From NCBI GenBank assembly GCA_016794245.1, contig JAEUKR010000040.1, positions 1 through 39,304 on the forward strand: a stretch of DNA of 39,304 nucleotides. The letters run 5' to 3'. The notes beneath the pieces were generated by a model. That model did no database searches. It saw only the letters and a program-made list of their open reading frames with translations, and was not told the origin of the DNA. The translations under genes were made by a program, and so were the position numbers. Origin of the DNA: Caedimonas sp. GTDB lineage: Bacteria > Pseudomonadota > Alphaproteobacteria > Caedimonadales > Caedimonadaceae. Positions 17,851 to 39,177 of the stretch are shown one piece after another (positions within the stretch are counted from its first letter, which is position 1; each line of letters starts with the position of its first letter).

Positions 17851-17911
17851 CGCCGCGGGACTCCTCACCACTCGTTCGCCTGCCCAGATTTCGGAATCCT
17901 TTGGGTATATA
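17851..17911 (+). repeat. ERIC-like palindromic repeat, right half only (copy A)
   Basis: This segment matches the right half of the full copy at 30630-30757: a CGCGGGACTC block, a CTCGT-CGCC block, and the end CCTTTGGGTATA. The left half is absent. The 12-base string AGTGTTATGCTG just before it (17837-17848) also occurs beside copy B. It sits between convergent uvrB and hemY. Confidence 0.7.
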
Positions 17912-24100: not shown

Positions 24101-24511
24101 ATGAAATATTGGTTGATGAAAAGCGAGCCTTCCACATGGTCCTGGCAAGATCAGGTTCAGAAGGGAATTGAACACTGGACTGGCGTGAGGAACTATCAGG
24201 CTTGCTCATATATGAAGGAAATGAGAAAAGGAGACTTGGCCTTTTTCTATCATTCGGTGAGTGAAAGGAAAATCGTGGGGATTGTTGAAATTGTGAAGGA
24301 GTATCATCCTGATTTTACCGACGAAACAGGAAAATTCGGTATGGTGGACGTGCAGGCCGTCAGGGCTTTGCCGCAGCCTGTAACCTTGGCGCAGCTCAAG
24401 GCGGATTCGCGATTTTCGCATCTTCGTTTACTTCGGCAATCCCGACTTTCCGTCATGCCTGTTGATGAACCCTCATGGAAGATTATTCTGGAAATGGGAG
24501 GAGCGACATGA
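24101..24511 (+). CDS. EVE domain protein
   Basis: A 136-aa single-domain protein starting MKYWLMKSEPSTWSW at ATG 24101 after a purine-rich GGAGGGTAGGGTAGAG. The EVE signature includes HWTGVRNYQACSYMKEMRKGDLAFFYHS. EVE domains have a PUA-like fold and read modified bases in DNA or RNA. It is short and complete as in other alphaproteobacteria, where it also follows tsaD-gpsA. Its stop overlaps the start of the next gene (ATGA). Confidence 0.9.
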   Translation: MKYWLMKSEPSTWSWQDQVQKGIEHWTGVRNYQACSYMKEMRKGDLAFFYHSVSERKIVGIVEIVKEYHPDFTDETGKFGMVDVQAVRALPQPVTLAQLKADSRFSHLRLLRQSRLSVMPVDEPSWKIILEMGGAT

Positions 24512-25998
24512 GCCTCTTTTTTTCTTTAAAGGAAAGCTTGCTCAGGGTCATCGAGTCTGTGCCCTTTCCCCAAATCTATAAAATTGTTTTTTTTACGCTC
24601 TTGCCTTTAAGCGTTTTTGCACCGCTAGGAATCACGGCCTTGATGTGTTTGCTCGCGGTCGTTTTCTTCATGGAGATGGCAAGGAATTTTCCTTTGAAAT
24701 ATATCTTTCAGGAAAACAATAAGCTCGTTTTTCTGTTGGGGATCATCCTGATTTTTTCATTTTTTTCCTGCTTTGGCTCAATTATAAAGGGAGAAAGTTT
24801 TAAGAATTGGGTGAGAATAGCCTCTCTTTTTCTGGCGGGGTATGTTGTTTTGAGGGGGCTTCAAACGACGTCCTGTCAAAAAGAAATCATAAAAAGTCTT
24901 CGGGCAGGATTTATCGTTGCCCTGATTCTCCTTTTTATCGAATCAATGACAGATGGCTTTATATTGATTCTTATTAAGCAGGAAATTGTCGAATTATTTA
25001 AATACAACAAGTCTGTTTCTGTGATGATTCTCTTGGCAGGGCCTGTATTCTTCCTCTCTACAAGATATCTGGCGCCTTCACATCTTTTTTATTTTTTAAG
25101 CGCGCCAGTCTTTATTGTTTTGATTTATGTCGTTTTCTCTTTGAAACATGACGCTTCCAAGGTTGCCGTTATAATCGGGTCAATTTCGTTTGTTATACTT
25201 TATTTTTTGTCGCTGAAATCGAGAAAGATATTCCTGCAAATACTGATTTGTTTTTGTTTTGCAGGCTCTTTGACCATTCCAAAGATTTATTCTGTTCCCA
25301 TTGTTAAAGAATCCGCATTCCAGTATTGTAAGAAACTGAGCCTGTATCACCGTGTAGCTATCTGGACCACTGTGCGCCAGATAGCGTTCAATCAAGTGAA
25401 GGATCTTGAAGGTTCTGTGAAACACACCCTTTTTGGATTCGGGATAGAAAGCTTAAAATCAGATATTTTTTCAAGATTGACGTATACGTGGGAATTACCA
25501 TCTCCCATTGAGTCATCCAAGACTTCTCCCAAACAATCAGAGATCAGGAAAATGATGGTTGAATCCATGAATCTGAAACATATTAAAGAAGCGCTCGATC
25601 CGGACAAGGCATCTTCTGACCAGATCCTCTATAAATATAATTTTCCTTTTGTGACAAGCAAAGGGATTCCCTCGCATCCTCATAATTTCATTTTGCATAT
25701 TTTATTAGACTTGGGTCTTGTCGGTCTTCTTTTCCTTTTTTTGCTGATAGAGTTATGCGTCTGTGGAATTTTGAGATTCAATTCACATCCTGTTTACTTG
25801 TGTATGGCCTCTGGAACCTTGATAATTTTCTTGATTATTGCCTCCATCAGTTATGGTATCTGGCAAAGCTGGTGGATATGCGTCATATGGCTTGTCGCTT
25901 CTCTCTTGCAGCTTCTCAAGGTCAAACCTGAAAAATCACAACAGGAAGAAATAAGAATAAGTGACGAAAATGATTTAAAATTTGATTTTGTTCTCTAA
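24508..25998 (+). CDS. O-antigen ligase/polymerase (Wzy/WaaL-like) membrane protein
   Basis: A 496-aa polytopic protein with about ten hydrophobic segments and a large loop near residues 270-400. The loop end carries GIPSHPHNFILHILLDLGLVG, which fits the Wzy_C/O-antigen ligase motif (H-NFxL--L---GL-G). Such proteins ligate or polymerise O-antigen or related glycans at the periplasmic face. ATG 24508 overlaps the EVE stop as ATGA. The following gene makes a modified sugar nucleotide, which fits a surface polysaccharide role. Ligase versus polymerase cannot be told. Confidence 0.75.
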   Translation: MSLFFSLKESLLRVIESVPFPQIYKIVFFTLLPLSVFAPLGITALMCLLAVVFFMEMARNFPLKYIFQENNKLVFLLGIILIFSFFSCFGSIIKGESFKNWVRIASLFLAGYVVLRGLQTTSCQKEIIKSLRAGFIVALILLFIESMTDGFILILIKQEIVELFKYNKSVSVMILLAGPVFFLSTRYLAPSHLFYFLSAPVFIVLIYVVFSLKHDASKVAVIIGSISFVILYFLSLKSRKIFLQILICFCFAGSLTIPKIYSVPIVKESAFQYCKKLSLYHRVAIWTTVRQIAFNQVKDLEGSVKHTLFGFGIESLKSDIFSRLTYTWELPSPIESSKTSPKQSEIRKMMVESMNLKHIKEALDPDKASSDQILYKYNFPFVTSKGIPSHPHNFILHILLDLGLVGLLFLFLLIELCVCGILRFNSHPVYLCMASGTLIIFLIIASISYGIWQSWWICVIWLVASLLQLLKVKPEKSQQEEIRISDENDLKFDFVL

Positions 25999-26076
25999 AA
26001 CAGAAAAACAAATATATTGAATTGTCCATCTTATATTGCGTATAAGTAAAATATAAATTGAAAGATTATTGATGAT

Positions 26077-28035
26077 ATGAAAAACGTTGTGAAATATATA
26101 ATTAAAAAGATCTTGAGATATTTTTCTGATCTCGACGACAAAATAAATAAAACATATTTTATTTTTACGCACGACCTTCTGGCTTCTTTTATTTCTTTGC
26201 CTCTTTCCTTGTGGTTAAGGGTGGGAGAAGAGATTCATGATTACCCGACGGAATTGATCGTCAAACACGCAACGATTTACGCACTGCTTTCCGCAGGCGT
26301 ATTTGTCTGGTTCAGGACATACAGAAGCGTATGGCGATATGTCTCCATGAATGAGCTTTTGTTGCTGACCGTTTCTGTAAGCTGTACCAACATTCTTTAC
26401 CTTATGACGGCATTTCTCATGTCTCATTCGGGGACGATGCCGCATTCGCTTGTCATCATTAACTGGTTTATCAATATCGCTCTTTTAGGCAGTTCAAGAT
26501 TCACCTATCGTTTCCTGAAAAATGAATTCAACCATTCTTCCCAAGGCGGTTCTTTTTCATTGCCGGTGAAAACGCTTTTGATCGGTCTGACGGATCAGAC
26601 GGAAATGTTTATTCGAGACCAGATTCGGCAAGGAGAGAGTTCTTACGATATTGTCGGGATTCTGGAAACCACAAACCGTAATATTGGTCGCCACGTTCAT
26701 TCTGTTGAAGTTTTAGGTCAATTGAGGGATTTTCCGAAAGTCTTGAAAAAATTGGAGTCATTCAATAATTGTCCTCAGAAACTGGTGATTACCGATCCTG
26801 ACTTTACGGGGAAACCCTTGCAGGAACTTATCACGCTCAACAAAAAATATAACTTTGAAATCGCGCGTTTGCCTCGGATGTGGGAAATGACAAGCGCCAC
26901 TCAAAAGATCCAGATTAAACCCATTTCAATTGAGGATCTGCTGGGACGTCCTCAAGTAGGTCTCAATCGCAAGAGTATGCAAGTATTTCTCCGTGGTAAG
27001 CGTGTCCTTGTGACGGGATGCGGGGGGTCTATTGGCGGAGAACTTGTTCGACAAATTGCCAACTTTGATCCCTCTCATCTGACATTGCTGGATCATTCCG
27101 AGTACTTGTTATATAAATCTGAATTGGAGTTAAGTGAAAATCACCCGGACCTTTCACGTCGGGCTATTCTGGCTGATGTGGCGAATTCTATTCGAATCGC
27201 AGAGATTTTTAATGAAGAAAGACCTGAAATCGTTTTTCACGCCGCCGCTCTTAAACATGTCCCTATCGCTCAGACAAATCCAAACGAAGCTGTGATGACA
27301 AATGTGATGGGCACACAGAACGTTGCGGAAGCTGCCCGTCAGTGCAACGTCAAGGCGGTAGTCTTTATTTCAACAGATAAGGCCGTTAACCCGACAAACA
27401 TTATGGGAGCTACAAAGCGTCTTTCGGAAAGTTACTGTCAGGCATTGGATAGCCTTGGCGTCAAAGAGAAAACAACGCGTTTCATTACAACGCGGTTTGG
27501 AAATGTTTTAGGATCCACAGGGTCGGTGGTGCCTCTTTTTAAACGACAAATCGCCCGTGGGGGACCTTTGACAGTGACGCATCCAGACGTAAAACGTTAC
27601 TTTATGACGATTCATGAAGCTGTGGAACTTGTGCTTCAGGCGGCTGTTCTGGGGTATGAGAGTCCAGACACAGCCGGACAAATTTTTGTTTTGGAAATGG
27701 GAGATCTTATTAAAATCTCTGATTTGGCGCGCCAAATGATTCAACTGGCCGGGTTTATTCCCGATAAGGATATACAAATTAACTATACAGGATTGCGAGA
27801 AGGGGAAAAACTGTATGAAGAGCTGTTTTATGGGGAAGAAAAATTGATCAAGACAAAATGCAGTGGACTCATGTTGGCTTCTCCAAAGGTGATGAATTAT
27901 GGACTTTTGAGAAATTCCCTTCATCAACTCCGGGAGTATGCTCAACAGTATCAGACGGATTTAAGCCTGGAGATGCTTAAAAAACTTGTTCCTGAATATC
28001 AGTTTGGAAATGAGTCCCATTTCCAAACCGATTAA
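26077..28035 (+). CDS. FlaA1/CapD-type nucleotide-sugar 4,6-dehydratase, membrane bound
   Basis: The 652-aa protein has four N-terminal membrane helices (about residues 25-150), a CoA-binding-like Rossmann domain (to about 290), and a C-terminal extended SDR domain. In the SDR domain the NAD motif is VLVTGCGGSIGGEL and the active-site region is STDKAVNPTNIMGATKR. Met replaces the usual Tyr, as in WbpM/PglF-type UDP-GlcNAc(GalNAc) 4,6-dehydratases. It makes a 4-keto-6-deoxy sugar nucleotide for surface glycans. A 78-base AT-rich gap separates it from the ligase-like gene. Confidence 0.9.
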   Translation: MKNVVKYIIKKILRYFSDLDDKINKTYFIFTHDLLASFISLPLSLWLRVGEEIHDYPTELIVKHATIYALLSAGVFVWFRTYRSVWRYVSMNELLLLTVSVSCTNILYLMTAFLMSHSGTMPHSLVIINWFINIALLGSSRFTYRFLKNEFNHSSQGGSFSLPVKTLLIGLTDQTEMFIRDQIRQGESSYDIVGILETTNRNIGRHVHSVEVLGQLRDFPKVLKKLESFNNCPQKLVITDPDFTGKPLQELITLNKKYNFEIARLPRMWEMTSATQKIQIKPISIEDLLGRPQVGLNRKSMQVFLRGKRVLVTGCGGSIGGELVRQIANFDPSHLTLLDHSEYLLYKSELELSENHPDLSRRAILADVANSIRIAEIFNEERPEIVFHAAALKHVPIAQTNPNEAVMTNVMGTQNVAEAARQCNVKAVVFISTDKAVNPTNIMGATKRLSESYCQALDSLGVKEKTTRFITTRFGNVLGSTGSVVPLFKRQIARGGPLTVTHPDVKRYFMTIHEAVELVLQAAVLGYESPDTAGQIFVLEMGDLIKISDLARQMIQLAGFIPDKDIQINYTGLREGEKLYEELFYGEEKLIKTKCSGLMLASPKVMNYGLLRNSLHQLREYAQQYQTDLSLEMLKKLVPEYQFGNESHFQTD

Positions 28036-28057
28036 ACAGAAGGTTCAACACCTCGAC

Positions 28058-28079
28058 GGTTTGAAAGACGAAGGGTATA
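28058..28079 (-). repeat. ERIC-like palindromic repeat, left end only (copy B)
   Basis: Read on the minus strand, these 22 bases match the left end of the full copy (TATACCCTTCGTCTTTCAAA). The 12-base AGTGTTATGCTG found beside copy A occurs here at 28089-28100, at the end of the holin gene. It lies in the gap between the dehydratase and the phage block, so it marks the junction. Confidence 0.6.
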
Positions 28080-28092
28080 AGGGCATAGAGTG

Positions 28093-28647
28093 TTATGCTG
28101 AATAATTTCCCTTGCTTCTTAACAGGGCAGCCAGATCTTTTGTTTTGCTGCCGCGAGAGGATCCAAATTCAAAGGCGTAAGCGTCTTTAAGACAAGCCCC
28201 GAATATTCCCGCGATCGTTGAAATGATCCCTACTGCTTCGCCCGGCAATTCCTTTTGGTAATACCCAAGGGCAAAAAGACAAAAGAGAAGACCTGTAGCC
28301 GCCGCGATCACCATGATATCGGCGCGCGTATTGCTGCGTCCGGCGGCGATGATCGCTGCATCGCGAGCACGCGCATTCATTCGTTCTTGAAGATAGGCGT
28401 GTTCTGTCTCATGTTCTATGTTCGCCAAAGCCTGTTGATATTGAAGAAGCAGTTTAGGATCTTGCGCGAGAGCCTGAACAGCGGCCATAGGTTCCTCTGT
28501 TTTCGTTATTTGTTTAGCAATGCCGACGACTTGCTGCGCGACTTTTTGAGTGGTGGCGACAGATTCTTCGGAACTTGATAGCCATTTGGAAACCAAGGGA
28601 GCCATTTCAGCCAAAGCAACAGCCGCCGTGATAAAAGGTATCGCCAT
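28093..28647 (-). CDS. Holin, GTA 3TM holin type
   Basis: A 184-aa protein with a hydrophobic N-terminal segment, a long charged helical middle, two membrane helices (about residues 108-128 and 136-152) and the end AFEFGSSRGSKTKD. That pattern fits the holin family named for gene-transfer-agent release (GTA_holin_3TM). It would permeabilise the inner membrane so that the adjacent hydrolase reaches peptidoglycan. It starts 2 bases after the hydrolase stop and is the last gene of the phage block. Confidence 0.75.
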   Translation of the reverse strand: MAIPFITAAVALAEMAPLVSKWLSSSEESVATTQKVAQQVVGIAKQITKTEEPMAAVQALAQDPKLLLQYQQALANIEHETEHAYLQERMNARARDAAIIAAGRSNTRADIMVIAAATGLLFCLFALGYYQKELPGEAVGIISTIAGIFGACLKDAYAFEFGSSRGSKTKDLAALLRSKGNYSA

Positions 28648-28649
28648 GA

Positions 28650-29105
28650 TTAACCTCTTTCTTCGGGATAAAGTTTAAAAAATAGATGTTGCCCAATACG
28701 AGCGTTTGGCTTTATGCCTTTAGCCCAGGCCGGAGGATAGAAAAGCCAGGAAGCGTAATAATGATCGCTTCCCTGCGTCAGATCAGGCCACTTTTTTTGG
28801 TACACGTTTTCCGCGACATGCCAGCATAAATCGAAAACAGGATTGTCTCCTGACTGGACTGATGAAATAATCTGATAATTGGGATCTTTCATATTCCAGC
28901 AGGAGAACTGATAGGGTTTCAGGCAAACCTCGCTGAGCGTTTTTCCAAACCGCTGGGGCGCTCTTGTCCGATTCATGACTACGTTGGCGATGGCTACAAG
29001 AGCACTGAGCCCTCCCTCTGGCTGACTGAATTCGCTTCTTGCTTCTCCATAGATCGTTCGCGCCAGGACATCCAGATTATAAAAATGTTTATCCTGTTCA
29101 TTCAT
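28650..29105 (-). CDS. Cell wall hydrolase, SleB/Hydrolase_2 family (phage lysin)
   Basis: A 151-aa hydrolase with the family signature LARTIYGEARSE followed by ALVAIANVVMNR, FSCWN, and the DHYYASWL and PAWAKG blocks. The Glu of GEARSE is the likely catalytic acid. The ATG at 29105 was chosen because the family starts there; upstream in-frame codons to 29159 are Lys/Arg-rich and overlap the acidic tail of the previous gene. Next to a holin it forms a lysis cassette. No signal peptide is seen, so export probably depends on the holin. Confidence 0.85.
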   Translation of the reverse strand: MNEQDKHFYNLDVLARTIYGEARSEFSQPEGGLSALVAIANVVMNRTRAPQRFGKTLSEVCLKPYQFSCWNMKDPNYQIISSVQSGDNPVFDLCWHVAENVYQKKWPDLTQGSDHYYASWLFYPPAWAKGIKPNARIGQHLFFKLYPEERG

Positions 29106-29679
29106 CGTCGTTGTCTTCCTCTTCTTCATCTTCCGCCTCTTCGATGACAAAAGCCTCATCTTTCAGGGCATGCCAATTTCTGCCATCGCCATAGATCAAA
29201 CACACTTTTTTGGACGTTACGTAGAGTCCAAGCGCTCCCATTTCTGCTTTGGGCAAATTGTCTTTTGTGAAAATGGGGACTTGCGTAAGCGTGACGGAGC
29301 GGTTCAGCATTTCGGAAAGATCCAGAAAAACTTTCCAATTTTGCTCTTCAAATTGAGCGCCACTGTGATGTGTAGTCACGCAGACCCAGGTTTGAGCGTC
29401 TTTAGCAACAACGTCATAGGCGGCATAGAAAGTGTTTGCCTCCCACTTGCCGCGCAAAGCGTAGGTCAGCCGAGGAAGTTTGAATTGTCCGAAAGACGTG
29501 CCATAGCTTCCCGTAATGTTAAGAGTGTCACCGTTTTGCTCAATTTCTTTGATTCCTTCTGCCGGTGTCGGGGTTGTCTCCAACGTTTCGATGCGTTTGA
29601 GAAGTTCTTCAAAATTTCCATCAATTTCATCCGAGGTTAGAGGCGCTCCTTTTTGATAACGATAAACGACAGGCATCAT
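29098..29679 (-). CDS. Phage tail/fibre-like protein, 193 aa
   Basis: The N-terminus YRYQKGAPLTSDEIDGNFEEL is the kind of segment that begins many phage tail-fibre or appendage proteins. The middle is beta-rich with a carbohydrate-binding-like WEANTFYAAYDVVAKDAQTWVC stretch, similar to short repeats in tail appendages. The C-terminus is a run of Glu/Asp. It starts with a 4-base overlap on the 310-aa gene and overlaps the hydrolase by 8 bases. A receptor-binding or tail-tip role is inferred only. Confidence 0.5.
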   Translation of the reverse strand: MMPVVYRYQKGAPLTSDEIDGNFEELLKRIETLETTPTPAEGIKEIEQNGDTLNITGSYGTSFGQFKLPRLTYALRGKWEANTFYAAYDVVAKDAQTWVCVTTHHSGAQFEEQNWKVFLDLSEMLNRSVTLTQVPIFTKDNLPKAEMGALGLYVTSKKVCLIYGDGRNWHALKDEAFVIEEAEDEEEEDNDDE

Positions 29680-30608
29680 GTTCTCCCTTGGTTCAGTTGT
29701 GGCATGAACGTAATATCAACCTCTCCGCTTTCCAACTCCAGTTGCTGATAAGTCTTCGAGGTATATGTTAAAAGTTCTTTCGACGATTTGTGCTGAAGCG
29801 TGATCCTGGCGAGTCCTTGCTGGATAGAATCCGCGAGCGAGTTGCATTGATCCTTGGTCAGGTCATCCTCGAAAAACCAGCGGGAATTCGATTTTACTCC
29901 CCCATGAGGGGGGATGATATTCTCTTTCTTTAAAGCGATGAGCGAGTAAAGTTTTAGATATGTCGTCTGATCCGAAGAGAGGATAACCGAAAAAATCATC
30001 ACTATTTTTTCAATGCTTATTCCCGCTTTGCAATATCCACCATAGCCAAGAACAGGAGTGGATTCACTTCTTGTCTTGCCATGAGGAGGCGTGACCATAC
30101 AGACGTCCTGGGGAGAAAAGTTTAGCTGTTGAATGAGTAACGGATCCGTTTGAACCCGAAATTCTTTTCTCAATACGGTGCGGTCAGGAGGCAAGATCAG
30201 TTTGATTTCCTGAAACTCTTCTCCTTGAAAAGGCTTGTCATCAAACAGACCGTATCCTGCGAAGTGCAGTTCAATGGCTCTGTTGCAGCTGAATTTGGCA
30301 ATCGCTTCATCGTTTCCTCCCCGAACGGCGTCCACTCCATAATAAGGAACCGCTCTCATCGCCTTATTGTTGATGATGAGTTGCACAAGAGATGAAGCGT
30401 CTTTTAGAGGAACAGGAACAATTTTGGTACGCAGGATGACAGAGGCGGGAAAGTCTTTGGCGCCAGCGAAGGTCACTTGAATATTTCCCTTTCGGTGAGC
30501 TGTTGAAAGAACGCCTTCTTCGCTCACATCGCTATCAGGTGCGGATATCAGCGCTCCTTGCGGATAGGGCTTTATCTGACAAGCGCGAATGCCGCGATCA
30601 ATGCTCAT
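29676..30608 (-). CDS. Phage-block protein of unknown function, 310 aa
   Basis: AAGGAG precedes the ATG. The protein is soluble, beta-rich, without membrane segments, and I do not recognise a family. Its place between a large tail/hub-like protein and a fibre-like protein suggests a tail or adhesion component. The 162 bases before it hold the longest palindromic repeat of the window, which separates it from the gene it would normally follow. Confidence 0.5.
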   Translation of the reverse strand: MSIDRGIRACQIKPYPQGALISAPDSDVSEEGVLSTAHRKGNIQVTFAGAKDFPASVILRTKIVPVPLKDASSLVQLIINNKAMRAVPYYGVDAVRGGNDEAIAKFSCNRAIELHFAGYGLFDDKPFQGEEFQEIKLILPPDRTVLRKEFRVQTDPLLIQQLNFSPQDVCMVTPPHGKTRSESTPVLGYGGYCKAGISIEKIVMIFSVILSSDQTTYLKLYSLIALKKENIIPPHGGVKSNSRWFFEDDLTKDQCNSLADSIQQGLARITLQHKSSKELLTYTSKTYQQLELESGEVDITFMPQLNQGRT

Positions 30609-30629
30609 GATAATATTTCTCCTTTCCTT

Positions 30630-30757
30630 TGTACCCTTTGTCTTTCAAACTGTGGGGGCGTTGGCCTTCGGGATTCGTCCTGCTCACGTACTGATTGTAC
30701 GCTGCGCGGGACTCACCGCTCGTCCGCCACCCCACATCTTGAAATGCTTTGGGTATA
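30630..30757 (-). repeat. ERIC-like palindromic repeat, full copy (copy C)
   Basis: An imperfect palindrome of about 127 bases fills the gap between two phage genes. Outer blocks pair as TACCC/GGGTA, TTTCAA/TTGAAA and TGTGGGG/CCCCACA. The apex is CGTAC-TGATT-GTACG (30687-30701) with flanking GTCC-GC pairing. Length, TATACCC/GGGTATA-type ends, a GCGTTGGC block and a GGGACTCAC block resemble the ERIC/IRU consensus as I remember it. Ends recur at 17911, 28058, 30758 and 32734. Confidence 0.8.
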
Positions 30758-30772
30758 TATACCCTTCGTCTT
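30758..30772 (-). repeat. Truncated left end of a second ERIC-like copy in tandem
   Basis: TATACCCTTCGTCTT follows directly on the GGGTATA end of copy C and is the left end of a further copy that stops after 15 bases. The stop codon of the 648-aa gene (30771-30773) overlaps it, so the repeat supplies that gene's terminus. Confidence 0.65.
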
Positions 30773-32717
30773 ACAGAATCTGGAGGTGTTCGTTCTGCCC
30801 GGAGGCTTTTAAATCAATTTGCCTGGGAGAAGACCAGGGATAGGGGATATCAACTTCTATATATTCCGTCATTGTTCCCAAGGGCTTTAAATCCAGAAGT
30901 CGTATATGAAGCGTCGTTGGCACGTGCTTGAGAGCCGCTTCGATATTGTGGCTCAGCGGGTATTGAGTACGCAGAAGATGCTTGTTTTGCCGTGAGGCTG
31001 GATTCGTAACAGTCATTTCCTGAACCAGATCTCTTGCCGTTAATGCTTGAGGCTGGATCCATCTTGTTTGATTTTCCTGATTTTGTGGCAACTGATAATC
31101 TATGTCTGAGGGAGAACGTCCTTTTAAAACATCCGTCTGGTAATCAGGACTCCCATAATCCATGCTATAAGTATAAGACGCATGAGACAGGGTTGGCGCA
31201 TCCCTGTTCCTCATCTCTTCCCCTGTTCCAATGGAAACCCCCAGAATTACCTCTCCCCATTTCTTGCCAGATTGACCTTCCATACATAATCGCAATGATT
31301 TGACTTTGCCCCATACTTCTTCTCCTGGAAGGCGGTGATCTTTAATCTTTACGGAATGATCACATGTAAGATCGACGAAATTTTCAATGGGACCAGACAC
31401 AGTAATTTCTACAGCGCGTGCTGAAGCCGCCAAATGTGCACGCGCGATTTCAATCGCGTATTCAATCGCTTTTTTGCCGCGGTCTGTTGAAAAAAATCGA
31501 CCTTGATGTGCGGAAAACAAAGCTTTTGGTTTTTTCCCGGTCGCTATCCAATGATGCCGATCTTCCTCAAAGGTTGCTTCTGATCTGTGCTTGCGCCTGC
31601 AAGTATAAGCGCCATCACCGTAAACAACGCGGAAACCCTTGCTATAATTCCACTTGGCATGCCATGTGTGTATGTCGTCTGTGGAAGCAATGTTTTGCAA
31701 ATTAAGATTTAGTTTCCGCGTTCTTTGATCATAGTCCGGAGAAAGCTGTGTAGCGTGCCCAAGCGTGAATCGCACTTTTTCACGACGTTTTTGCCGATAG
31801 ATCCATCCGAGCACAAGGTTTGCTTTAAACCATGACCTTTTGAGTCTCTTTTGCTGGGGTTGAGAGGGCTTGTCCTTACCATACGCCGGATCTTCAGGAG
31901 AAACCCAGATCGGTTCGGAAACCGCAGGATATAAGTTGAGGTCTCCGGTATAATTGGGCGTAATTTCTTTTAAATCGCTTTTCGCAACCCAGTATCCAGA
32001 GTGGCCGATTTTTTCATTTGTTTGCCACCATTTTGCTTGTAGATCTTCTCCTGTTAGCGTATTGACGATTCCTTCCCGGAAACAAGATCTTATGAGGGGC
32101 GAGAGATCGGTCTCTCCTCGATAGTGTTGGATCCACTCGACGGAAAGAGAAACGTTAACGGCGCTGAGGGGCGGCTCTCCCATACGTATTTTCAGACTGT
32201 CGTAAAAATGCTTTTCTCCAAGATCGACTTTATGAGATCCCCAAAACAGGTTTGAAAGCTTTACCTCGCCCGTTTTTCGACACCAGAAAAACAATTCGGA
32301 ACGCGCTTCAAGGCTTTCCATAGGATCATCATGCCCTTCTTCCTCTACGAACAGAGAATCCCAGAAAGGAGACCCCTTGAGATTCTGGTGAAGAGTTTGA
32401 AGCTGATCTTCCCAATGAGAGGGGCGCGCCGTAAAGTTTAAAGCGATCATCTCGCGATTCAGATGATGAGGAACAGCGCAAAGTTTTCCTTTGAAAAGAA
32501 GCTCGATTCCTTTTCCACGATCGCAGGAAACATAGCACCATTGTTTTTGATGAGGATCAAGAAACCCTGCATAAGGATTTCGGATTTCAATCGTGACAAG
32601 AGGGAACGCCCCTTCTTTTTCCGTCAGGGAAAAGGAAAATATTTCTCCATCTGTCAAGGCGTGGCGTAACGGATTAAAATCTTCCCTTTCATCGACCCAT
32701 GCGAAATATAGCTTCAT
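30771..32717 (-). CDS. Large phage tail/baseplate hub-like protein, 648 aa
   Basis: A very strong GAGGAGGT ribosome site precedes the ATG. The N-terminal quarter (FSLTEKEGAFPLVTIEIRNPYAGF, then LLFKGKLCAVP) has the look of a hub or tail-associated beta domain, but I do not recognise a named family. It has no membrane segments and many Trp and charged residues. Size and place in the block suggest a tail-tip structural protein. It is bracketed by palindromic repeats (copy D upstream, copy C and its tandem end downstream), and its stop codon lies in the repeat, so the native C-terminus may be altered. Confidence 0.5.
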   Translation of the reverse strand: MKLYFAWVDEREDFNPLRHALTDGEIFSFSLTEKEGAFPLVTIEIRNPYAGFLDPHQKQWCYVSCDRGKGIELLFKGKLCAVPHHLNREMIALNFTARPSHWEDQLQTLHQNLKGSPFWDSLFVEEEGHDDPMESLEARSELFFWCRKTGEVKLSNLFWGSHKVDLGEKHFYDSLKIRMGEPPLSAVNVSLSVEWIQHYRGETDLSPLIRSCFREGIVNTLTGEDLQAKWWQTNEKIGHSGYWVAKSDLKEITPNYTGDLNLYPAVSEPIWVSPEDPAYGKDKPSQPQQKRLKRSWFKANLVLGWIYRQKRREKVRFTLGHATQLSPDYDQRTRKLNLNLQNIASTDDIHTWHAKWNYSKGFRVVYGDGAYTCRRKHRSEATFEEDRHHWIATGKKPKALFSAHQGRFFSTDRGKKAIEYAIEIARAHLAASARAVEITVSGPIENFVDLTCDHSVKIKDHRLPGEEVWGKVKSLRLCMEGQSGKKWGEVILGVSIGTGEEMRNRDAPTLSHASYTYSMDYGSPDYQTDVLKGRSPSDIDYQLPQNQENQTRWIQPQALTARDLVQEMTVTNPASRQNKHLLRTQYPLSHNIEAALKHVPTTLHIRLLDLKPLGTMTEYIEVDIPYPWSSPRQIDLKASGQNEHLQIL

Positions 32718-32733
32718 TTTACCTCCTCGACTT

Positions 32734-32767
32734 TATACCCTTCGTCTTTTGAAATCCTTTGGGTATA
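32734..32767. repeat. ERIC-like repeat, internally deleted 34-bp form (copy D)
   Basis: The left end TATACCCTTCGTCTT is joined directly to the right end TTGAAATCCTTTGGGTATA with the whole middle missing. It lies in the gap between the divergent 648-aa gene and the EamA gene. It is therefore in the leader of one or both. Confidence 0.75.
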
Positions 32768-32891
32768 GACTTCTTTTCTCAAATTTGCCTGACTCCAAAA
32801 TTTACTCGACAAAATATAGAGAGATCTGGCATAAGATGATTATCGGCTTTGCGTAAATTCTAATCATTCTAATCAGAGGACAAACAGATCA

Positions 32892-33851
32892 GTGACCCGC
32901 GCCATCAATATTAAAAACACGCATTGGTTTAATCGGCCCGGTTATCTGCAAGGCGTCTTCTGGATCGTTATCGTTGCGTTGATCAGCAGCTCTAACGATG
33001 TTCTCATGCGTTTGACAGGCACACGCCTTCCTTCAATGGAAATTTCCTTTTTTCGATTTTTCTTTTCTTTTATGATTCTGTTGCCGATAATGCTTTTTCA
33101 GGGGGGACAAGCATTCCAGACTTCGCGTCCCGGGCGGCACATCTTGCGCGGGCTTCTTGGTTTTGGAGCCGTTGCCTTCTGGTGTGCGGGTATCAACATG
33201 GTTCCTCTTGCTGTTGTCAGCACCCTTGCTCTCACGGTTCCTCTCTTTGTTCTTCCCATGGCCATTGTTTTTTTGGGAGAAAATGTTGGATGGCAACGAG
33301 CTGCCGCTACGCTTTCCGGCTTTTTGGGCATCGCTATTATTGTCAATGGAACATCGCAAACCCACGATGCGATACAATCTATACAATCTCTTGACAAGGG
33401 AACGTTGTTCCTTGTCGCTGCAACTATTTTGTTTGCGTGCAGCGATATTCTGAACAAGAAAATGGTTGTCAAGGAGTCCAATTTAACAATGTTGTTTTAT
33501 TTTGCCGCAGGCACGTCTTTATGCGGCGCCATTCCCGCCTATATCGTATGGGAAATGCCTACAGTTACTGAATTATGTTATTTATTCTGTTTGGGAGCAG
33601 GGGGAAACCTTATTTTGTATTGTCTTCTTAAAGCGTTTGCCGCAACTGACGTATCTGCTCTGGCACCGTATCGTTATGTTGAACTGTTTTTTGCCTGCTT
33701 GTTTGGGTTGGTACTTTTTAATGAAATTCCAACCATGACAACGCTTTTGGGAGCCGTTGTTATTATTCCCAGTACTTTTGCGATTGCCTACTATGAAACA
33801 CGGCATCAAAAAATGCTGGCGATGACACAGACACAGGAGGCGAGTTCCTAG
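32892..33851 (+). CDS. EamA/DMT-family transporter
   Basis: A 319-aa protein with about ten membrane helices in two EamA repeats (about residues 18-150 and 165-305); the end of the first repeat shows the typical LGFLGIAIIVNG. The start is GTG at 32892 with AGAGGA upstream. Members export or import small metabolites; in Rickettsia a related protein imports S-adenosylmethionine, so an uptake role is possible but unproven. It is the only plus-strand gene within the phage block and lies where tail genes would be expected. Confidence 0.85.
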   Translation: MTRAINIKNTHWFNRPGYLQGVFWIVIVALISSSNDVLMRLTGTRLPSMEISFFRFFFSFMILLPIMLFQGGQAFQTSRPGRHILRGLLGFGAVAFWCAGINMVPLAVVSTLALTVPLFVLPMAIVFLGENVGWQRAAATLSGFLGIAIIVNGTSQTHDAIQSIQSLDKGTLFLVAATILFACSDILNKKMVVKESNLTMLFYFAAGTSLCGAIPAYIVWEMPTVTELCYLFCLGAGGNLILYCLLKAFAATDVSALAPYRYVELFFACLFGLVLFNEIPTMTTLLGAVVIIPSTFAIAYYETRHQKMLAMTQTQEASS

Positions 33852-33867
33852 CCTGGTATAGTGTGGC

Positions 33868-33884
33868 TCCCACCCTGGGTGGGA
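33868..33884. terminator. GC-rich hairpin after the EamA gene
   Basis: TCCCACCC and GGGTGGGA are exact reverse complements around a single T, forming a short stable stem. It lies between the convergent ends of the EamA gene and the 171-aa gene. No T-run follows on the plus strand, so a terminator role is tentative. Confidence 0.35.
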
Positions 33885-33900
33885 AACTGGACGAGGTATA

Positions 33901-34416
33901 TTAAACTTCTTCCAGATCCAGTTGCCACCCTCCAGAAAAGCCCCACTCGTCTGTAGTCAATTTATATCCCACAACACGCATGTGAAGATAAGGTCGATAA
34001 AAAACATAAAGTCTGTCGGCCTCTTCCTGTTCATCCATTAAAACAACCGCCCGTCCTGTCACCGATCGAATCTCTTTTTGTTGTTGATGTTCATCCATGA
34101 CAATCACTGAATTTTCAACAGGGTCGCGGTTTAGCGTGATATTTTGGGGCGCTTTGATCTCTTGGGATAATCTTTGAATGCATCCCACTTTCATAAGGCT
34201 GCCTCGCCAAATCCCCTCGAGAGAAGGGCATGACTTATCCTGGCACTGAATTGTCGATTGAAATTTATGATGTTCTTCTCGACCCGTGTAAATCAGTTGT
34301 CCATTAACGGTACGCCTTAAATCTCCGGTCATCAAAGGGACAAGGGTTTGTTGACAATGACGCGCGGAAAAAGGAGGAAAGCCAACACGGTCCAGTATTA
34401 ATTCTGATTCGTACAT
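33901..34416 (-). CDS. Phage-block protein of unknown function, 171 aa
   Basis: GGAGG precedes the ATG, directly after the small 46-aa ORF. The protein is soluble, with a CQDKSC pair of cysteines near the middle and a beta-rich C-terminus ending GGWQLDLEEV. No family is recognised. Position after the DUF3168 gene suggests a tail or connector component, and its downstream neighbour in the original block appears displaced by the EamA insertion. Confidence 0.55.
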   Translation of the reverse strand: MYESELILDRVGFPPFSARHCQQTLVPLMTGDLRRTVNGQLIYTGREEHHKFQSTIQCQDKSCPSLEGIWRGSLMKVGCIQRLSQEIKAPQNITLNRDPVENSVIVMDEHQQQKEIRSVTGRAVVLMDEQEEADRLYVFYRPYLHMRVVGYKLTTDEWGFSGGWQLDLEEV

Positions 34417-34426
34417 AGGATCCTCC

Positions 34427-34567
34427 TTACCATGTTGCCCAGCGTGGTAAAAGGACTTGCTGCGTTATCGCTGATTCCCTGAAGTAGCGCTCAAGGGTTT
34501 CGAGTGTTTCATAATGGGCCTCAAGTACTTTATGATTTTCAGATAAATCGTTATTTTCAAAATTCAT
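34427..34567 (-). CDS. Small 46-aa protein of the phage block
   Basis: The ATG at 34567 has GAGAGG just upstream and the frame runs to TAA at 34427-34429, filling the gap between the DUF3168 gene and the 171-aa gene. The product is acidic and helical at the N-terminus (SENHKVLEAHYETLETLERY) and rich in Trp/Arg at the end. No family is recognised. The same strand, good ribosome site and tight fit (10 bases before the next ATG) make it likely real. Confidence 0.5.
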   Translation of the reverse strand: MNFENNDLSENHKVLEAHYETLETLERYFRESAITQQVLLPRWATW

Positions 34568-34588
34568 ATTAACCTCTCTTTTTCTCGC

Positions 34589-34984
34589 TTACTTTAATCT
34601 TATGAGGATTGTGAAAATCAAAACAGCCGTCCGCGTGACGCCATCTTTTTCATTTTTTATCTCACTTTCCTCAAACCTTGCCAGGCCGGCCGCGCCCTCT
34701 TGAAGAACGAACGATGTTCCTTCCAAAGCGGTCAATATTTTTTGATGAAGATCTTGAATCTCGGCTTCTCCTTTATAACGACTCGTAATCGAAACGGTGG
34801 TTTTCATACGTCCTGCTTTTTGCGGCATCGGGCTTCTTTCAATCGGGTTTAATTGAAGCGCGATATAAGGAGGCGAAGCGTCAGGCAGGACTTGACCAAA
34901 AATATGAACCTGAGGCAAAGTCTGGCTCAGCTTGTTTTCAAGCGCCTGATAAATTCCAAAGTCACTCATGGGGGTCTCCGTCAC
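34589..34984 (-). CDS. DUF3168 tail completion protein (GTA gp8-like)
   Basis: A 131-aa protein with the DUF3168 pattern: an N-terminal helix (FGIYQALENKLSQTLP), a PPYIALQL strand, a VSITSRYKGEAEIQDLHQKILTAL core and a final strand. In HK97-like phages and gene transfer agents this protein caps the tail at the head junction. It overlaps the head-closure gene by 23 bases. Confidence 0.75.
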   Translation of the reverse strand: MTETPMSDFGIYQALENKLSQTLPQVHIFGQVLPDASPPYIALQLNPIERSPMPQKAGRMKTTVSITSRYKGEAEIQDLHQKILTALEGTSFVLQEGAAGLARFEESEIKNEKDGVTRTAVLIFTILIRLK

Positions 34985-35333
34985 TCTTTAGTGTCGTACT
35001 GACATTAAAAAACTGATAACCGTCTTTTTGGGTCGGCTCTTCCAGGACAACTAAAAAAAGCCCTTTCCAATGAAGGCGCATTCCTCTTTTGATCGCGTGA
35101 TTCGCGCGCGCCACGACTTTATAGACACGAGAAAGTTCTTCCACTCCTCCCCGTCTCTGCCCGCGCAGTTCAACAGAACTGGCCGATCCTTGCGCGGAAG
35201 CCAGTGGGGTCAGCTTGATCCATAATTTAGACAGGTTTTCCCATCTTTCATGAAAGCCTCCCCGTTCGTCTTTAACCAACATACGCTCTTGCAGCGTCAC
35301 ATAGTGGCGCAGTTCGTTGAACAGAAATGTCAT
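34962..35333 (-). CDS. Phage head closure / head-tail adaptor protein
   Basis: The 123-aa product matches small head-tail joining proteins: LRHYVTLQERMLVKDERGGFHERWEN, LTPLASAQGSASSVELRGQ, and YKVVARANHAIKRGMRLHWKG. The frame is open to a TTG at 35420, but ATG 35333 with GAGG upstream gives the usual family length. It would connect the portal-connector ring to the tail. It follows the head-tail connector gene after 120 bases. Confidence 0.75.
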   Translation of the reverse strand: MTFLFNELRHYVTLQERMLVKDERGGFHERWENLSKLWIKLTPLASAQGSASSVELRGQRRGGVEELSRVYKVVARANHAIKRGMRLHWKGLFLVVLEEPTQKDGYQFFNVSTTLKSDGDPHE

Positions 35334-35453
35334 CGTTGTTAACCTCGGAATAAAAAAATCATAGGTTTTTTCATAAGCAGACCAAAGCCTGACACCCAAC
35401 TTCCGGCTTTTGAAAGTCAAAGAGTATAATTAAGGAGTATAACTAAAGAGTAC

Positions 35454-36074
35454 TCAGGCAAGTCTGCTAACGCGATAGGGTTTGACAAGCTCAAGAGCGC
35501 CGGGACTGAGAACAGGCGGAAGCCCCCTGTTATCGTTGACGCCAACACGCTTTTCGTAGAGATCCGCAACCATCATCAGCATTGCTTGACGCAGCGGATC
35601 GGGAACGTCTTTGACCGTATCGCCATAGCCAGCGCTAAAGTCAATCTGAATCAGGCTTTGAGAGTGGAACGCGTTTGTCTGTAGATTTGAAAAATGCATT
35701 TTGGCCACCCGTCCAGCGGTATCCAGACGATAACCTGAAATCTCGCGAGATCCATAATCGTTTATCAGTTTAGGCTTGTCCAAAAGCTTGATAAACGGTG
35801 AACGAGGAATCTCTAAACCTTTAGATCCTCGGCTTTTTTGTCCTGTCAGGTAAAGATCGTCACTGATGGACAGACAATAAGCGAGATTTATGCGAAAACG
35901 CCATGATTGACAGATTAAAGACCTTGCCGTGTAAGCTTCCACGGCTTGACGCGCCGTTTTGATAAGATTCTTGAGAATCTCGTCTTCCTCTGCTCCCTCC
36001 AACCTTAAAAAGATCTTGGTTTCTAAAAGGTTGATGGGCTCACAGGCAGGTTGTTCCAGTAAAATTAAGCTCAT
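35454..36074 (-). CDS. Head-tail connector protein (gp6/GTA gp6-like)
   Basis: A 206-aa protein with the N-terminal LLETKIFLRLEGAEEDEILKNLIKTARQAVEAYTARSL pattern typical of HK97 gp6-type connectors. Its C-terminal PDPLRQAMLMMVADLYEKR is also family-like. GGGAGG precedes the ATG. It forms the ring under the portal. A hairpin-containing 131-base gap separates it from the capsid gene. Confidence 0.8.
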   Translation of the reverse strand: MSLILLEQPACEPINLLETKIFLRLEGAEEDEILKNLIKTARQAVEAYTARSLICQSWRFRINLAYCLSISDDLYLTGQKSRGSKGLEIPRSPFIKLLDKPKLINDYGSREISGYRLDTAGRVAKMHFSNLQTNAFHSQSLIQIDFSAGYGDTVKDVPDPLRQAMLMMVADLYEKRVGVNDNRGLPPVLSPGALELVKPYRVSRLA

Positions 36075-36164
36075 AAAACCTCCCGTTTATACATTACGCA
36101 TATGTTTCTGTCTGCTTACGTCAGTCTATGCGAATGATGACTACTGAACTGTTAAGGAGAACCC

Positions 36165-36180
36165 CCGATACCTCCATCGG
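36165..36180 (-). other. Small hairpin between capsid and connector genes
   Basis: CCGAT and ATCGG (36165-36169 and 36176-36180) can pair around a six-base loop. It may tune read-through after the highly expressed capsid gene; no T-run follows. Confidence 0.25.
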
Positions 36181-36205
36181 AACCGAGGGTGTCCAGGATT
36201 AACGT

Positions 36206-37432
36206 CTACTCTTGCTCTCCTCCGGCGAACTTAATGATTTTGAAAGCATCAAAGTTCATGACATCTCCTCCGACGCGCTTGGTTGTGTAGAACTCGACAT
36301 AGGGCTTTGCGCTGAAAGGATCCCGAAGAATGTGTATCCCCGCGCGATCCACGATCTGATATCCTTCTTTTAAATTCGCGAAAACGATCGCATTGCTTGG
36401 TCTGTCAGGTGTTAATGGCGGCATATCCTCGACGATAACGACTTTATATCCCAAAAGCGTCGGCGTTGATTCAGCTCCCAACCCTGGGAGCCACAGATAA
36501 AGACCATTTCTATCTTTCAATTTTCTGACCGCCGCATGTGCCGAACGCGACATCAGCCAAACGGCGTCCTTCTGGTATTCCGATTTCATCGCGTGAATGG
36601 TTTCGATCAAAATGTCTCCCGGATTCTCTTGGGCGAATGCTCCGTTCACACCTGTTTGAAGATGTTCAATCTTTCCCCATTCCAGGGCGCCGCGCTCAAC
36701 CGTGGCATAATTCATGAACCCCTTTGGTTTATTGTCCCCATCGCCTTCGAGGAAAGCTTTGTTCTCGACCTGAGCCATTTTTGTGGAAATGCGGTTTGCC
36801 AACCATTCCTCTATGTTCACGCGGGAATCGTCCAGAAGCTTTTGCGTGGCTCTGGGTTTGGCATAGAGTTCATGTACAGGGATCTGTATTTTTGCCAACT
36901 TGGGCGAAGTCGATTCGTCCCGTTGTTGCGTTTCAGCAGCCCATCCGACTTCCGCTTTCTCTTTATCAATGAGAAGGTCAACGGAACTTGAAGAGATGGT
37001 CATCACACTCGCTAATTCCCGAATGGGAGACAGATTCGCAAGTTCGCGCCCAATACGATCAGAGACCACCTGGGGAATTAAATATCCTCCATCAGCGCCA
37101 CTGCCACTGCTCAGAGCTTTCGCCTCAAGCTGGAAAAGTTTTGTTTCGTCTCCCTTGCGGACATAATGAAAGAAAGCAGACTTGCGTTCTTGTTCGGAGA
37201 AAGAAAGAGATCCTTCCGTATCTCCAAGGGCGGGTCTTTTGAAGGCAAGCTGAAGTTTGTTCAAATTCTCATACTTACGATCTACCTCAGCATTTAAACG
37301 GGAAAGTTTTTGCTCTATTAAACTGTCTGCCTTGCCTGTTTTTTCGAGAGACGACAGTCTCTCATCATAGGTAGACTTGAATTCTTCAAAAGCGCAACCA
37401 AGCTCATTGACGGCATTAAGAACCGTTTCCAT
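36206..37432 (-). CDS. Phage major capsid protein, HK97 family
   Basis: The 408-aa protein has an N-terminal coiled-coil delta domain (about residues 1-65) that acts as scaffold. The HK97-fold region begins near SSGSGADGGYLIPQVVSDRIGRELA (about 108) and continues through SSSSVDLLIDK, the EVGWAAETQQRDES loop and FLEGDGDNKPKGFMNY to the end. The adjacent prohead protease presumably removes the delta domain. The sequence looks intact. Confidence 0.95.
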   Translation of the reverse strand: METVLNAVNELGCAFEEFKSTYDERLSSLEKTGKADSLIEQKLSRLNAEVDRKYENLNKLQLAFKRPALGDTEGSLSFSEQERKSAFFHYVRKGDETKLFQLEAKALSSGSGADGGYLIPQVVSDRIGRELANLSPIRELASVMTISSSSVDLLIDKEKAEVGWAAETQQRDESTSPKLAKIQIPVHELYAKPRATQKLLDDSRVNIEEWLANRISTKMAQVENKAFLEGDGDNKPKGFMNYATVERGALEWGKIEHLQTGVNGAFAQENPGDILIETIHAMKSEYQKDAVWLMSRSAHAAVRKLKDRNGLYLWLPGLGAESTPTLLGYKVVIVEDMPPLTPDRPSNAIVFANLKEGYQIVDRAGIHILRDPFSAKPYVEFYTTKRVGGDVMNFDAFKIIKFAGGEQE

Positions 37433-37474
37433 AGTATCCTCCAGTCAGTAAATCAGTGAAAATGTATCGTTTGG

Positions 37475-37491
37475 AATCCTGTTTCAGGATT
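37475..37491 (-). other. Hairpin in the capsid gene leader
   Basis: AATCCTG and CAGGATT pair perfectly around a TTT loop in the 75-base gap between protease and capsid genes. Such stems often protect or attenuate the capsid message; function here is inferred. Confidence 0.35.
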
Positions 37492-37507
37492 TAATGAGTA
37501 TATCAAC

Positions 37508-38059
37508 CTAAGACTTTAAAATGCGAATGGCGTGTTGAATGCTCTCAATTAACGGATCATTGTTTATCTCCCTTGTTTTCAGGTTGGTAATTCTTGCGGC
37601 TCTGTTTGCTGGGAAGGTCACCAGAGAAATTTCAAACAGATCCAACTGTTTCAAAAGACGCTCTTTCAGGTTTGGGCCTTTTGAAGCCTGTACGACGCGA
37701 TAGCCAATCGAAAGACTGTCGAGGACTCGTGCTTTCATCAGGGCATACGCTTCTTGCGCCCGTCTTAATTCCAGAATCAATCGTCCCTTGACGAATAAGC
37801 CTCGATCGTCCTCGCGAATTTCTTCCCAAACGCCGATGGGGTCAGACGCATCATGCTGCCAAAGCATTTTGGGCGACGTGCTTTGTGCTGCTATAGCTTC
37901 CAGAGACTTTTGAAAAGCTCCCTTTAAAACACGATCTCCTTGATCGTCCAGCTCATTAAAGATGCTGGCGTAACCGCTGAAGCTTCCTAGATTGTTGCAG
38001 GATTTAATTAAAAAAGGCGCTGAACATTTACGAAGTGAAAGTGAAACTGAATTCGTCAT
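37508..38059 (-). CDS. HK97-family prohead protease
   Basis: The 183-aa protein has the herpesvirus-assemblin-like fold of prohead proteases: GYASIFNELDDQGDRVLKGAF, the catalytic His in KMLWQHD, the catalytic Ser in LDSLSIGYRV, and LLKQLDLFEISLVTFPAN. It processes the capsid delta domain during maturation. Its ATG overlaps the portal stop as ATGA. Confidence 0.92.
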   Translation of the reverse strand: MTNSVSLSLRKCSAPFLIKSCNNLGSFSGYASIFNELDDQGDRVLKGAFQKSLEAIAAQSTSPKMLWQHDASDPIGVWEEIREDDRGLFVKGRLILELRRAQEAYALMKARVLDSLSIGYRVVQASKGPNLKERLLKQLDLFEISLVTFPANRAARITNLKTREINNDPLIESIQHAIRILKS

Positions 38060-39177
38060 TTAACATTCTCCTTATGCCGAAAAAGAACGTCTCCGTTTTC
38101 AAGAGGAGCATATCCTACCGCGCGTCGTTTTTCGTTGATTGTCAGAAAATGGGCGCCCGCAATTTTAGCCCATGCTTCTTCCCGGCGTTGCGCAAGGGCG
38201 GGAATTCGGTCAATGTCATAGGAAAGCTTCAAGCCTTTTTCGAATTGAGGGGCAAGCCATAGGTTGAATTCATCCGTAAGATAATCCAGCAAAGGAAGAA
38301 TCGTGTCTTCCCACAGATGAAACCGAGCCTCCTTATAGTTCGAAAACGTGGCGTCACCGGGTACGCCAACAAGCATGGGAGGGACGCCATAGGCTTGTGC
38401 GATTTCGCGTGCGGAGAGATTTTTCCCATTGATAAAGTCAAGATCCTTGGGAGAAAGACCCATTTCCTTCCACTCGAAATCTCCTTCCAGAATAAGAATA
38501 CGACCGGCATTCAACTCACCCTCATACAGTGATTTGACATCCTGTCGAAGCTCTTCCCGTTGCTCATGGTTGAGGTTTTGCCCCTCTCCCTGTCCTATGA
38601 TCAATGCTCCTGAAGGACGACCCCCGTTTTGCAGTAAAGCCAGATTATGCCCTGCTACCGCGTTATGTTGATCAATCGAACAGGCTGCCGCTTCAATGGG
38701 ACTCATGCCATACCAGTCGTTCAGGGGATGAAACAGTCTTAAATGCAGGACGTTCCCTTCGCGACTGAGGGTGTCGCCTCTTAAGACGCGGTGGCTTCCC
38801 TTCACGGTATATTCATAAGCATGTGGAATCCCCGTGGCGCTCGGAATGATCTTGATGCGATCGGGCCTGAGAGGATGAAGTTCGGCAGGACAGTCGTCAA
38901 ACCCTCGGACAATTTCAATATAACTGTTTCCGGCAAGCAAAAGATAAGCAAGCGTCGCTTCTATAAACGCCGACCCCGCCTGTCGCGGACTGGGACAATG
39001 GAGCAGGTCGAGAAGAGGATGATGAAGCAATTCTTCCTCTTTGTAATAAAGGCGCCATGGCACGCTTGCTGCTCCTCTTGCAATAAGATTCACGGCGCGA
39101 TAAACGATGACGTTTTTCTGATATCCTTCTTCGGCAAGAGCTTCATAGCGCCGCGGTGTCCAGATGGAGACCTCCAA
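38056..39177 (-). CDS. HK97-family phage portal protein, 5' truncated by the repeat
   Basis: Residues match HK97/GTA portals from the WTPRRYEALAEEGYQKNVIVYRAV block on, with AGNSYIEIVRG, LHPLRPDRI and the GVPPMLVGVPGDATFSNYKEA motif near the end. In related portals roughly 20-30 residues precede WTPR. Here the frame hits the 119-bp repeat five bases before the only usable start, a TTG at 39177, and a stop follows at 39211-39213. The gene is therefore probably missing its true start, and the terminase that should precede it is not visible. Confidence 0.88.
   Translation of the reverse strand: MEVSIWTPRRYEALAEEGYQKNVIVYRAVNLIARGAASVPWRLYYKEEELLHHPLLDLLHCPSPRQAGSAFIEATLAYLLLAGNSYIEIVRGFDDCPAELHPLRPDRIKIIPSATGIPHAYEYTVKGSHRVLRGDTLSREGNVLHLRLFHPLNDWYGMSPIEAAACSIDQHNAVAGHNLALLQNGGRPSGALIIGQGEGQNLNHEQREELRQDVKSLYEGELNAGRILILEGDFEWKEMGLSPKDLDFINGKNLSAREIAQAYGVPPMLVGVPGDATFSNYKEARFHLWEDTILPLLDYLTDEFNLWLAPQFEKGLKLSYDIDRIPALAQRREEAWAKIAGAHFLTINEKRRAVGYAPLENGDVLFRHKENVK

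Follow-up and report, generated by a model that had tools for sequence, protein, structure and literature searches.

This locus raises the question of whether a repeat of the ERIC type can reside in an alphaproteobacterial genome. ERIC elements, which are short, mobile palindromic repeats, have been known since about 1990 and are used in strain typing, and both their origin and the enzyme that moves them are unknown. A 2024 review gives their range as Enterobacteriaceae and Vibrionaceae (PMC10969869). The window, that is the whole stretch of DNA analysed here (39,304 nucleotides from Caedimonas sp.), had received a first-pass annotation describing an imperfect palindrome of about 127 bases in the gap at 30630-30772, between two phage genes, followed by a truncated second copy in tandem and resembling ERIC/IRU in an alphaproteobacterial setting. 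We conclude that this palindrome is very likely a genuine member of the ERIC family, belonging to an alphaproteobacterial branch.

The palindrome and its gene setting

The palindrome is housed in the spacer (30609-30770) between two co-directional minus-strand genes, and three partial copies of the same family lie elsewhere in the window:

17852..17909, minus strand: partial left-end copy of the family
28037..28078, plus strand: partial right-end copy of the family
29676..30608, minus strand: downstream gene of 310 aa without a family match
30632..30757, minus strand: complete element, very likely of the ERIC family, in ERIC orientation, 126 bp; bounded by TATACCC at 30757 and GGGTAC at 30632, with CGTACTGATTGTACG as apex
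30758..30790, minus strand: truncated second copy, right-hand end only, head-to-tail, abutting the complete copy, 33 bp
30771..32717, minus strand: upstream gene of 648 aa without a family match; the truncated copy makes up its 3' end
35372..35427, plus strand: partial right-half copy of the family

On the minus strand, the element reads TATACCCAAAGCATTTCAAGATGTGGGGTGGCGGACGAGCGGTGAGTCCCGCGCAGCGTACAATCAGTACGTGAGCAGGACGAATCCCGAAGGCCAACGCCCCCACAGTTTGAAAGACAAAGGGTAC. Its forward-strand left end, (T)GTACCC, is a degenerate TATACCC and its right end is GGGTATA; the inner pairs are TTTCAA/TTGAAA and TGTGGGG/CCCCACA, and the apex is CGTAC-TGATT-GTACG. The annotated ends, inner pairs and apex held, with the left end degenerate. 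The palindrome itself held as well, its left boundary being right within a few bases and its right boundary including part of the tandem remnant. That remnant, also correctly called, corresponds to positions 96-128 of the family consensus (88% over 33 bp). It contains the TAA (30771-30773) of the 648-aa upstream gene, within a degenerate CAGATTCTGTAAGACGAAGGGTATA. The downstream gene has its ATG 23 bases beyond the element, preceded by an AGGAG that resembles a Shine-Dalgarno sequence.

The placement between two phage genes needs a qualification. Neither flanking gene has a match in Pfam or PHROG, and both sit in a cluster that also encodes portal, prohead protease, major capsid, connector, tail-terminator and endolysin-like proteins. 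This segment (28093-39177) forms an HK97-type head/tail cluster with unidentified tail genes; it may represent either the remains of a prophage or a cluster resembling a gene-transfer agent. It is adjoined by plus-strand surface-polysaccharide genes at 24475-28035 (O-antigen ligase-like Wzy_C, Polysacc_synt_2).

RNA folding of 30620-30800 gives one hairpin of -65.7 kcal/mol, compared to -46.8 ± 3.9 kcal/mol for dinucleotide shuffles (z = -4.9), none of the 200 shuffles being as stable. A generic repeat finder at default settings reported no inverted repeat for the palindrome, presumably because its arms are interrupted, and Rfam holds no family matching the element.

Relationship to ERIC

The ERIC sequence first used as query matches 5,376 of 5,426 E. 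coli genomes, and the published consensus (PMC2759123) is its reverse complement save for a few positions. Aligned to the published E. coli consensus, the window element is identical at 86 of 122 positions (70%) and colinear over the full length. The alignment score is 70, compared to a mean of -15.5 (sd 7.7, maximum 16.5) for 3,000 shuffles (z = 11.1), and falls to 2 in the opposite orientation. Against an S. enterica ERIC variant, z is 6.7.

A profile HMM was also built from gammaproteobacterial ERICs only, using 23 copies from E. coli, Serratia, Pantoea, Klebsiella, Rahnella, Vibrio and IMG/VR contigs. This gamma-only HMM matches the window element end to end at 38.3 bits, which together with the consensus identities supports the ERIC/IRU likeness initially proposed. 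It likewise matches 30 of 30 tested copies from the source genome, all on the same strand and at up to 43.6 bits, the weakest few being individually below significance; the maximum on 1,200 shuffled copies is 5.0 bits. Conversely, a profile of the genome's own copies was run against gammaproteobacterial ERICs; the best of these, on a Serratia plasmid, scores 38.3 bits, with shuffles at 6.0.

Identity to individual enterobacterial ERIC copies is modest. With blastn, the family consensus retrieved no E. coli ERICs and gave only short partial matches to plasmids, one of which (20 bp, Serratia, H56) is a real ERIC end; the window element itself matched nothing among plasmids and phages. An exact-pattern match on genome contig L058 was rejected, being 34 bp only without the remaining element.

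As for the properties by which ERIC is described, the length of about 127 bp is met (126 bp in the window, with full copies clustering at 124-133 bp), and the 7-bp terminal inverted repeats TATACCC/GGGTATA are present in the family, the left end in the window being degenerate (TGTACCC). The remaining structural criteria, a single long imperfect hairpin common to the copies and many, mostly intergenic copies, are met too. The described host range (Enterobacteriaceae or Vibrionaceae), which is not structural, is not.

Dispersed copies, their ends and their movement

A BLAST-type DNA search of the genome gave 44 matches (40 candidates scored) and a covariance model search at least 143 copies, a lower bound because 150 candidates were scored. 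Iterated nhmmer over 756 kb (57% of the assembly) identified 149 pieces without overlap, of which 77 are full length and which together cover 2.0% of bases; the reversed-sequence control of the same 756 kb gave 0 pieces. Extrapolation yields an estimate of about 260 pieces genome-wide, that is 200-300 copies and fragments in a draft genome of 1.33 Mb (95.7% complete, contamination estimate 0.12%). The copies are spread over many contigs, and many are truncated. The first-pass annotation, which had mentioned neither this large family size nor the presence in several other alphaproteobacterial families described below, would have been refuted by the lack of a significant ERIC-profile score and of further genomic copies, or by copies not sharing the fold. 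This refutation is not fulfilled: the score is significant, the copies number at least 143 with a reversed control of 0, and the fold is shared.

More specifically, a 30-copy alignment yields a consensus hairpin with 44 pairs. In this alignment, 89.7% of pair cells are paired, compared to 87.5 ± 0.3% after shuffling, and sliding the partner by 1-3 columns drops pairing to 22-46%. Two-sided changes occur in 14 pairs and 34 cells, versus 8.1 and 16.0 in shuffled columns. Because related copies share changes, these compensatory counts overstate independent events.

Among copies of at least 100 bp (n = 85), 61 are intergenic (72%), 13 partly so and 11 inside predicted genes of at least 100 aa; random placement would give 9%, 13% and 78%, respectively. 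Of 31 copies initially classed as 'in CDS', about 20 owed this to spurious short ORFs or to overlap with a gene edge only. With respect to tandem genes, 17 copies lie in the same and 15 in the opposite orientation, showing no preference.

The most similar and apparently youngest copies are concentrated on one 101.6-kb contig (C18 of the source genome, G000). Short copies of about 82-95 bp with both ends (C20:11428-11519, C4:4205-4297, C35:6837-6928 and C45:23453-23548 of the same genome) are possibly an internally deleted sub-type.

Conservation stops abruptly on both sides: at the TA boundary, information drops to about 0.1 bits, from values of about 1-1.6. Two copy pairs with 100% identity have unrelated flanks, which indicates that movement is recent. 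The copy at C49:40788-40913 interrupts another dispersed repeat, and its joined flanks align with uninterrupted relatives: the empty site at C35:28891-29023 reads GCGT-TA-AAAG and the filled C49 site TCAT-TA-[element]-TG-CAAG. This insertion may fit TA target duplication, a tentative inference from the single empty site found, which compares paralogs 77% alike and in which the 3' TA of the filled copy reads TG.

Another palindromic repeat is also dispersed in the source genome; its ends are AGACCTCTTGCATAACC...GGTTATGCAAGAGGTCT, and it occurs at C35:28891-29023 and C38:26940-27044. It is also found inside ERIC copies (C17:68055-68272, C17:102384-102657, C44:35183-35435 and C38:49960-50163), and an ERIC copy lies inside it, so that the nesting is reciprocal.

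The choice of TA as target would suggest an IS630/Tc1-type enzyme; however, no DDE_3 (IS630-type) transposase was matched in the assembly, the search being limited to DDE_3 with other classes outside its scope. Four widely spaced ERIC end pairs were candidates for an autonomous element in the 57% of the genome read. The two intervals read were rejected, their contents being an epimerase-like gene and a mechanosensitive-channel-like gene. Within the DDE_3 search, these two intervals and 57% of the genome, no transposase with matching ends was found.

Our main reading, to which we assign a probability of roughly 0.88, is that the family is an alphaproteobacterial branch of ERIC, a non-autonomous MITE of about 127 bp that would insert at TA and duplicate it, and that has been amplified in this genome. 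Homology, copy number, sharp TA ends, a fold with compensatory changes, intergenic bias and in-frame copies were observed directly, as were recent identical copies at unrelated sites and the match of one filled site to its empty paralogous counterpart. In this view, the MITE would be moved in trans by an unidentified transposase, which is inferred, and the window copy would have inserted between two genes of a phage-type operon, beside an older truncated copy. The operon transcript should then contain a long hairpin in this intergenic stretch, and this hairpin would probably change the processing or stability of the flanking messages. The latter prediction is made by analogy with Yersinia, in which ERIC insertion at gene ends alters transcript levels via an RNase E site (PMC10969869, citing De Gregorio); there are no expression data.

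Host range, alternative explanations and known systems

The alphaproteobacterial setting claimed at the outset held. A split alphaproteobacterial tmRNA (alpha_tmRNA, 222 bits) is present on contig C49, which bears many copies, about 0.6 kb from the copy at C49:77071-77201; among 14 control genomes, only Caulobacter matches the alpha_tmRNA model. Because the 16S signature ALF968 gave no match, the class assignment rests on alpha_tmRNA and kinship labels. The small genome suggests, by inference, a host-associated bacterium.

The distribution was surveyed using a model of source-genome copies plus gammaproteobacterial copies. Within the same order (10 genomes), matches were found in the source genome, G007 (17) and G009 (1), the latter two being of one genus, and 0 matches in three same-family genomes. 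In a class sample, 6 of 385 genomes match (families f1, f9, f17 and f114); fuller scoring gives 23 copies in G249, 14 in G329 and one each in G254, G119 and G022. Copies of G249 and G254 reach 24-30 bits with the gamma-only profile. Because the G022 match (L126) is short and the G007/G009 copies are diverged, at about 10 bits or less against that profile, we regard these as weaker members. In a phylum sample, 27 of 398 genomes match, 25 of them outside the class and 3.6-5.3 Mb in size, as expected for enterobacteria and relatives. Related elements are present in about four further alphaproteobacterial families and most genomes of the class are without any, an absence that is approximate because the large samples were scored with stricter filters. 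The G007 and G009 loci L131-L147, from a different family of the same order, represent a group of diverged 127-bp palindromes with TA ends, TATACCTATTCARTTTCGACGTGTGGG...TTTGAAAGAGGATGGGTATA.

A midpoint-rooted maximum-likelihood tree from about 127 positions splits gammaproteobacterial from alphaproteobacterial copies with a support of 100, placing the source genome with G007/G009 (98) and f9, f17 and f114 together (96). This clean separation argues against recent transfer from enterobacteria.

The alternative that survives best, although unlikely, is that copies are kept mainly as functional RNA elements, such as RNase processing signals or terminators, and not as mobile parasites. Compensatory changes, strong hairpins and intergenic bias are in its favor, as is the effect of Yersinia ERIC on mRNA decay (PMC10969869). 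Against it, copies show no orientation preference, many are truncated, some lie within coding sequence and sister genera lack them; furthermore, a conserved hairpin is equally expected if transposition needs the fold.

Convergence, in which an unrelated alphaproteobacterial MITE would resemble ERIC through its palindrome and TA-rich ends, is very unlikely. In its favor, bacterial MITEs commonly combine TA ends, a length of 100-200 bp and a hairpin (PMC2229807), the match of the G007 relatives lies largely in the apex and the right-hand end, and blastn fails to connect the two families. However, the similarity is colinear over all 127 positions, non-paired blocks included. It is also strand-specific (2 vs 70; 30/30 copies on one strand), which is strong counter-evidence because shared architecture would favor neither strand.

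Recent horizontal transfer of an enterobacterial ERIC, or assembly contamination, would agree with the three same-family genomes without copies and the patchy occurrence in the class (6/385), but is very unlikely given the alpha/gamma split, the grouping of copies from other alphaproteobacterial families with the source genome and not with enterobacteria, the location of copies on many contigs, near alpha_tmRNA and inside genes with same-order orthologs, and the low contamination estimate.

The alphaproteobacterial ERIC branch that we favor has in common with ERIC/IRU/RU-1 of Enterobacteriaceae and Vibrionaceae (Hulton 1991; Wilson and Sharp 2006, cited in PMC10969869) the 127-bp length, TATACCC...GGGTATA ends, TA sites, full-length colinear sequence, hairpin, intergenic dispersal and occasional in-frame gene fusion. 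Unlike ERIC of enterobacteria, it has another host class, a different center and inner stem and a separate well-supported clade, and it is denser than ERIC in E. coli. QMITE2 of Coxiella, reported across gamma- and alphaproteobacteria (PMC5896051), and CIR of Caulobacter/Brucella, which is without terminal inverted repeats (PMC2229807), are small palindromic repeats too. The element is of a known kind, and what is likely new is the host range, together with the density and the in-frame use seen in an alphaproteobacterial genome of small size. Full-text literature searches found no report of ERIC in Alphaproteobacteria; most subscription papers were outside their scope, and such a report could exist. 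ERIC mobile DNA would inhabit a much wider bacterial range than the literature searched states. Furthermore, a 1.3-Mb genome with recent identical copies, and none in sister genera, narrows the search for the ERIC enzyme, candidates being genes that the ERIC-bearing genomes in the two classes share but their relatives lack.

Rickettsia palindromic elements (RPE), not all of which end in TA (PMC2229807), similarly have alphaproteobacterial hosts, in which palindromic units about 100-150 bp long interrupt protein genes in frame, whereas most source-genome copies are intergenic. A bolder reading, possible at best, is that ERIC is an old proteobacterial palindromic mobile element with a long alphaproteobacterial history, from which enterobacterial ERIC and RPE-type in-frame elements may both derive, all moved by a still unidentified trans-acting enzyme; the sequence relation to RPE is untested. 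If this were true, the enzyme should be found in genomes with recent, numerous copies, such as the source genome.

At least three copies satisfy the RPE criterion of in-frame insertion into protein genes: a YgfZ/CAF17-type gene, a permease-like gene and murG each hold one in frame, well within the gene, and all three have the same orientation. Genes with internal copies have orthologs in the same order, and the insert is absent from relatives for the two in-frame genes compared. The murG copy links ERIC with the entry of palindromic elements into Rickettsia proteins. This gene (L106:7315-8583, which is C45:27315-28583 of G000), the single murG match in the source genome, contains an insert derived from ERIC that is in frame and about 55 residues long. 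The flanking segments are only 3 bases apart in the relative G004, in which the insert is missing, and alignments to known MurG structures cover both sides of the insert.
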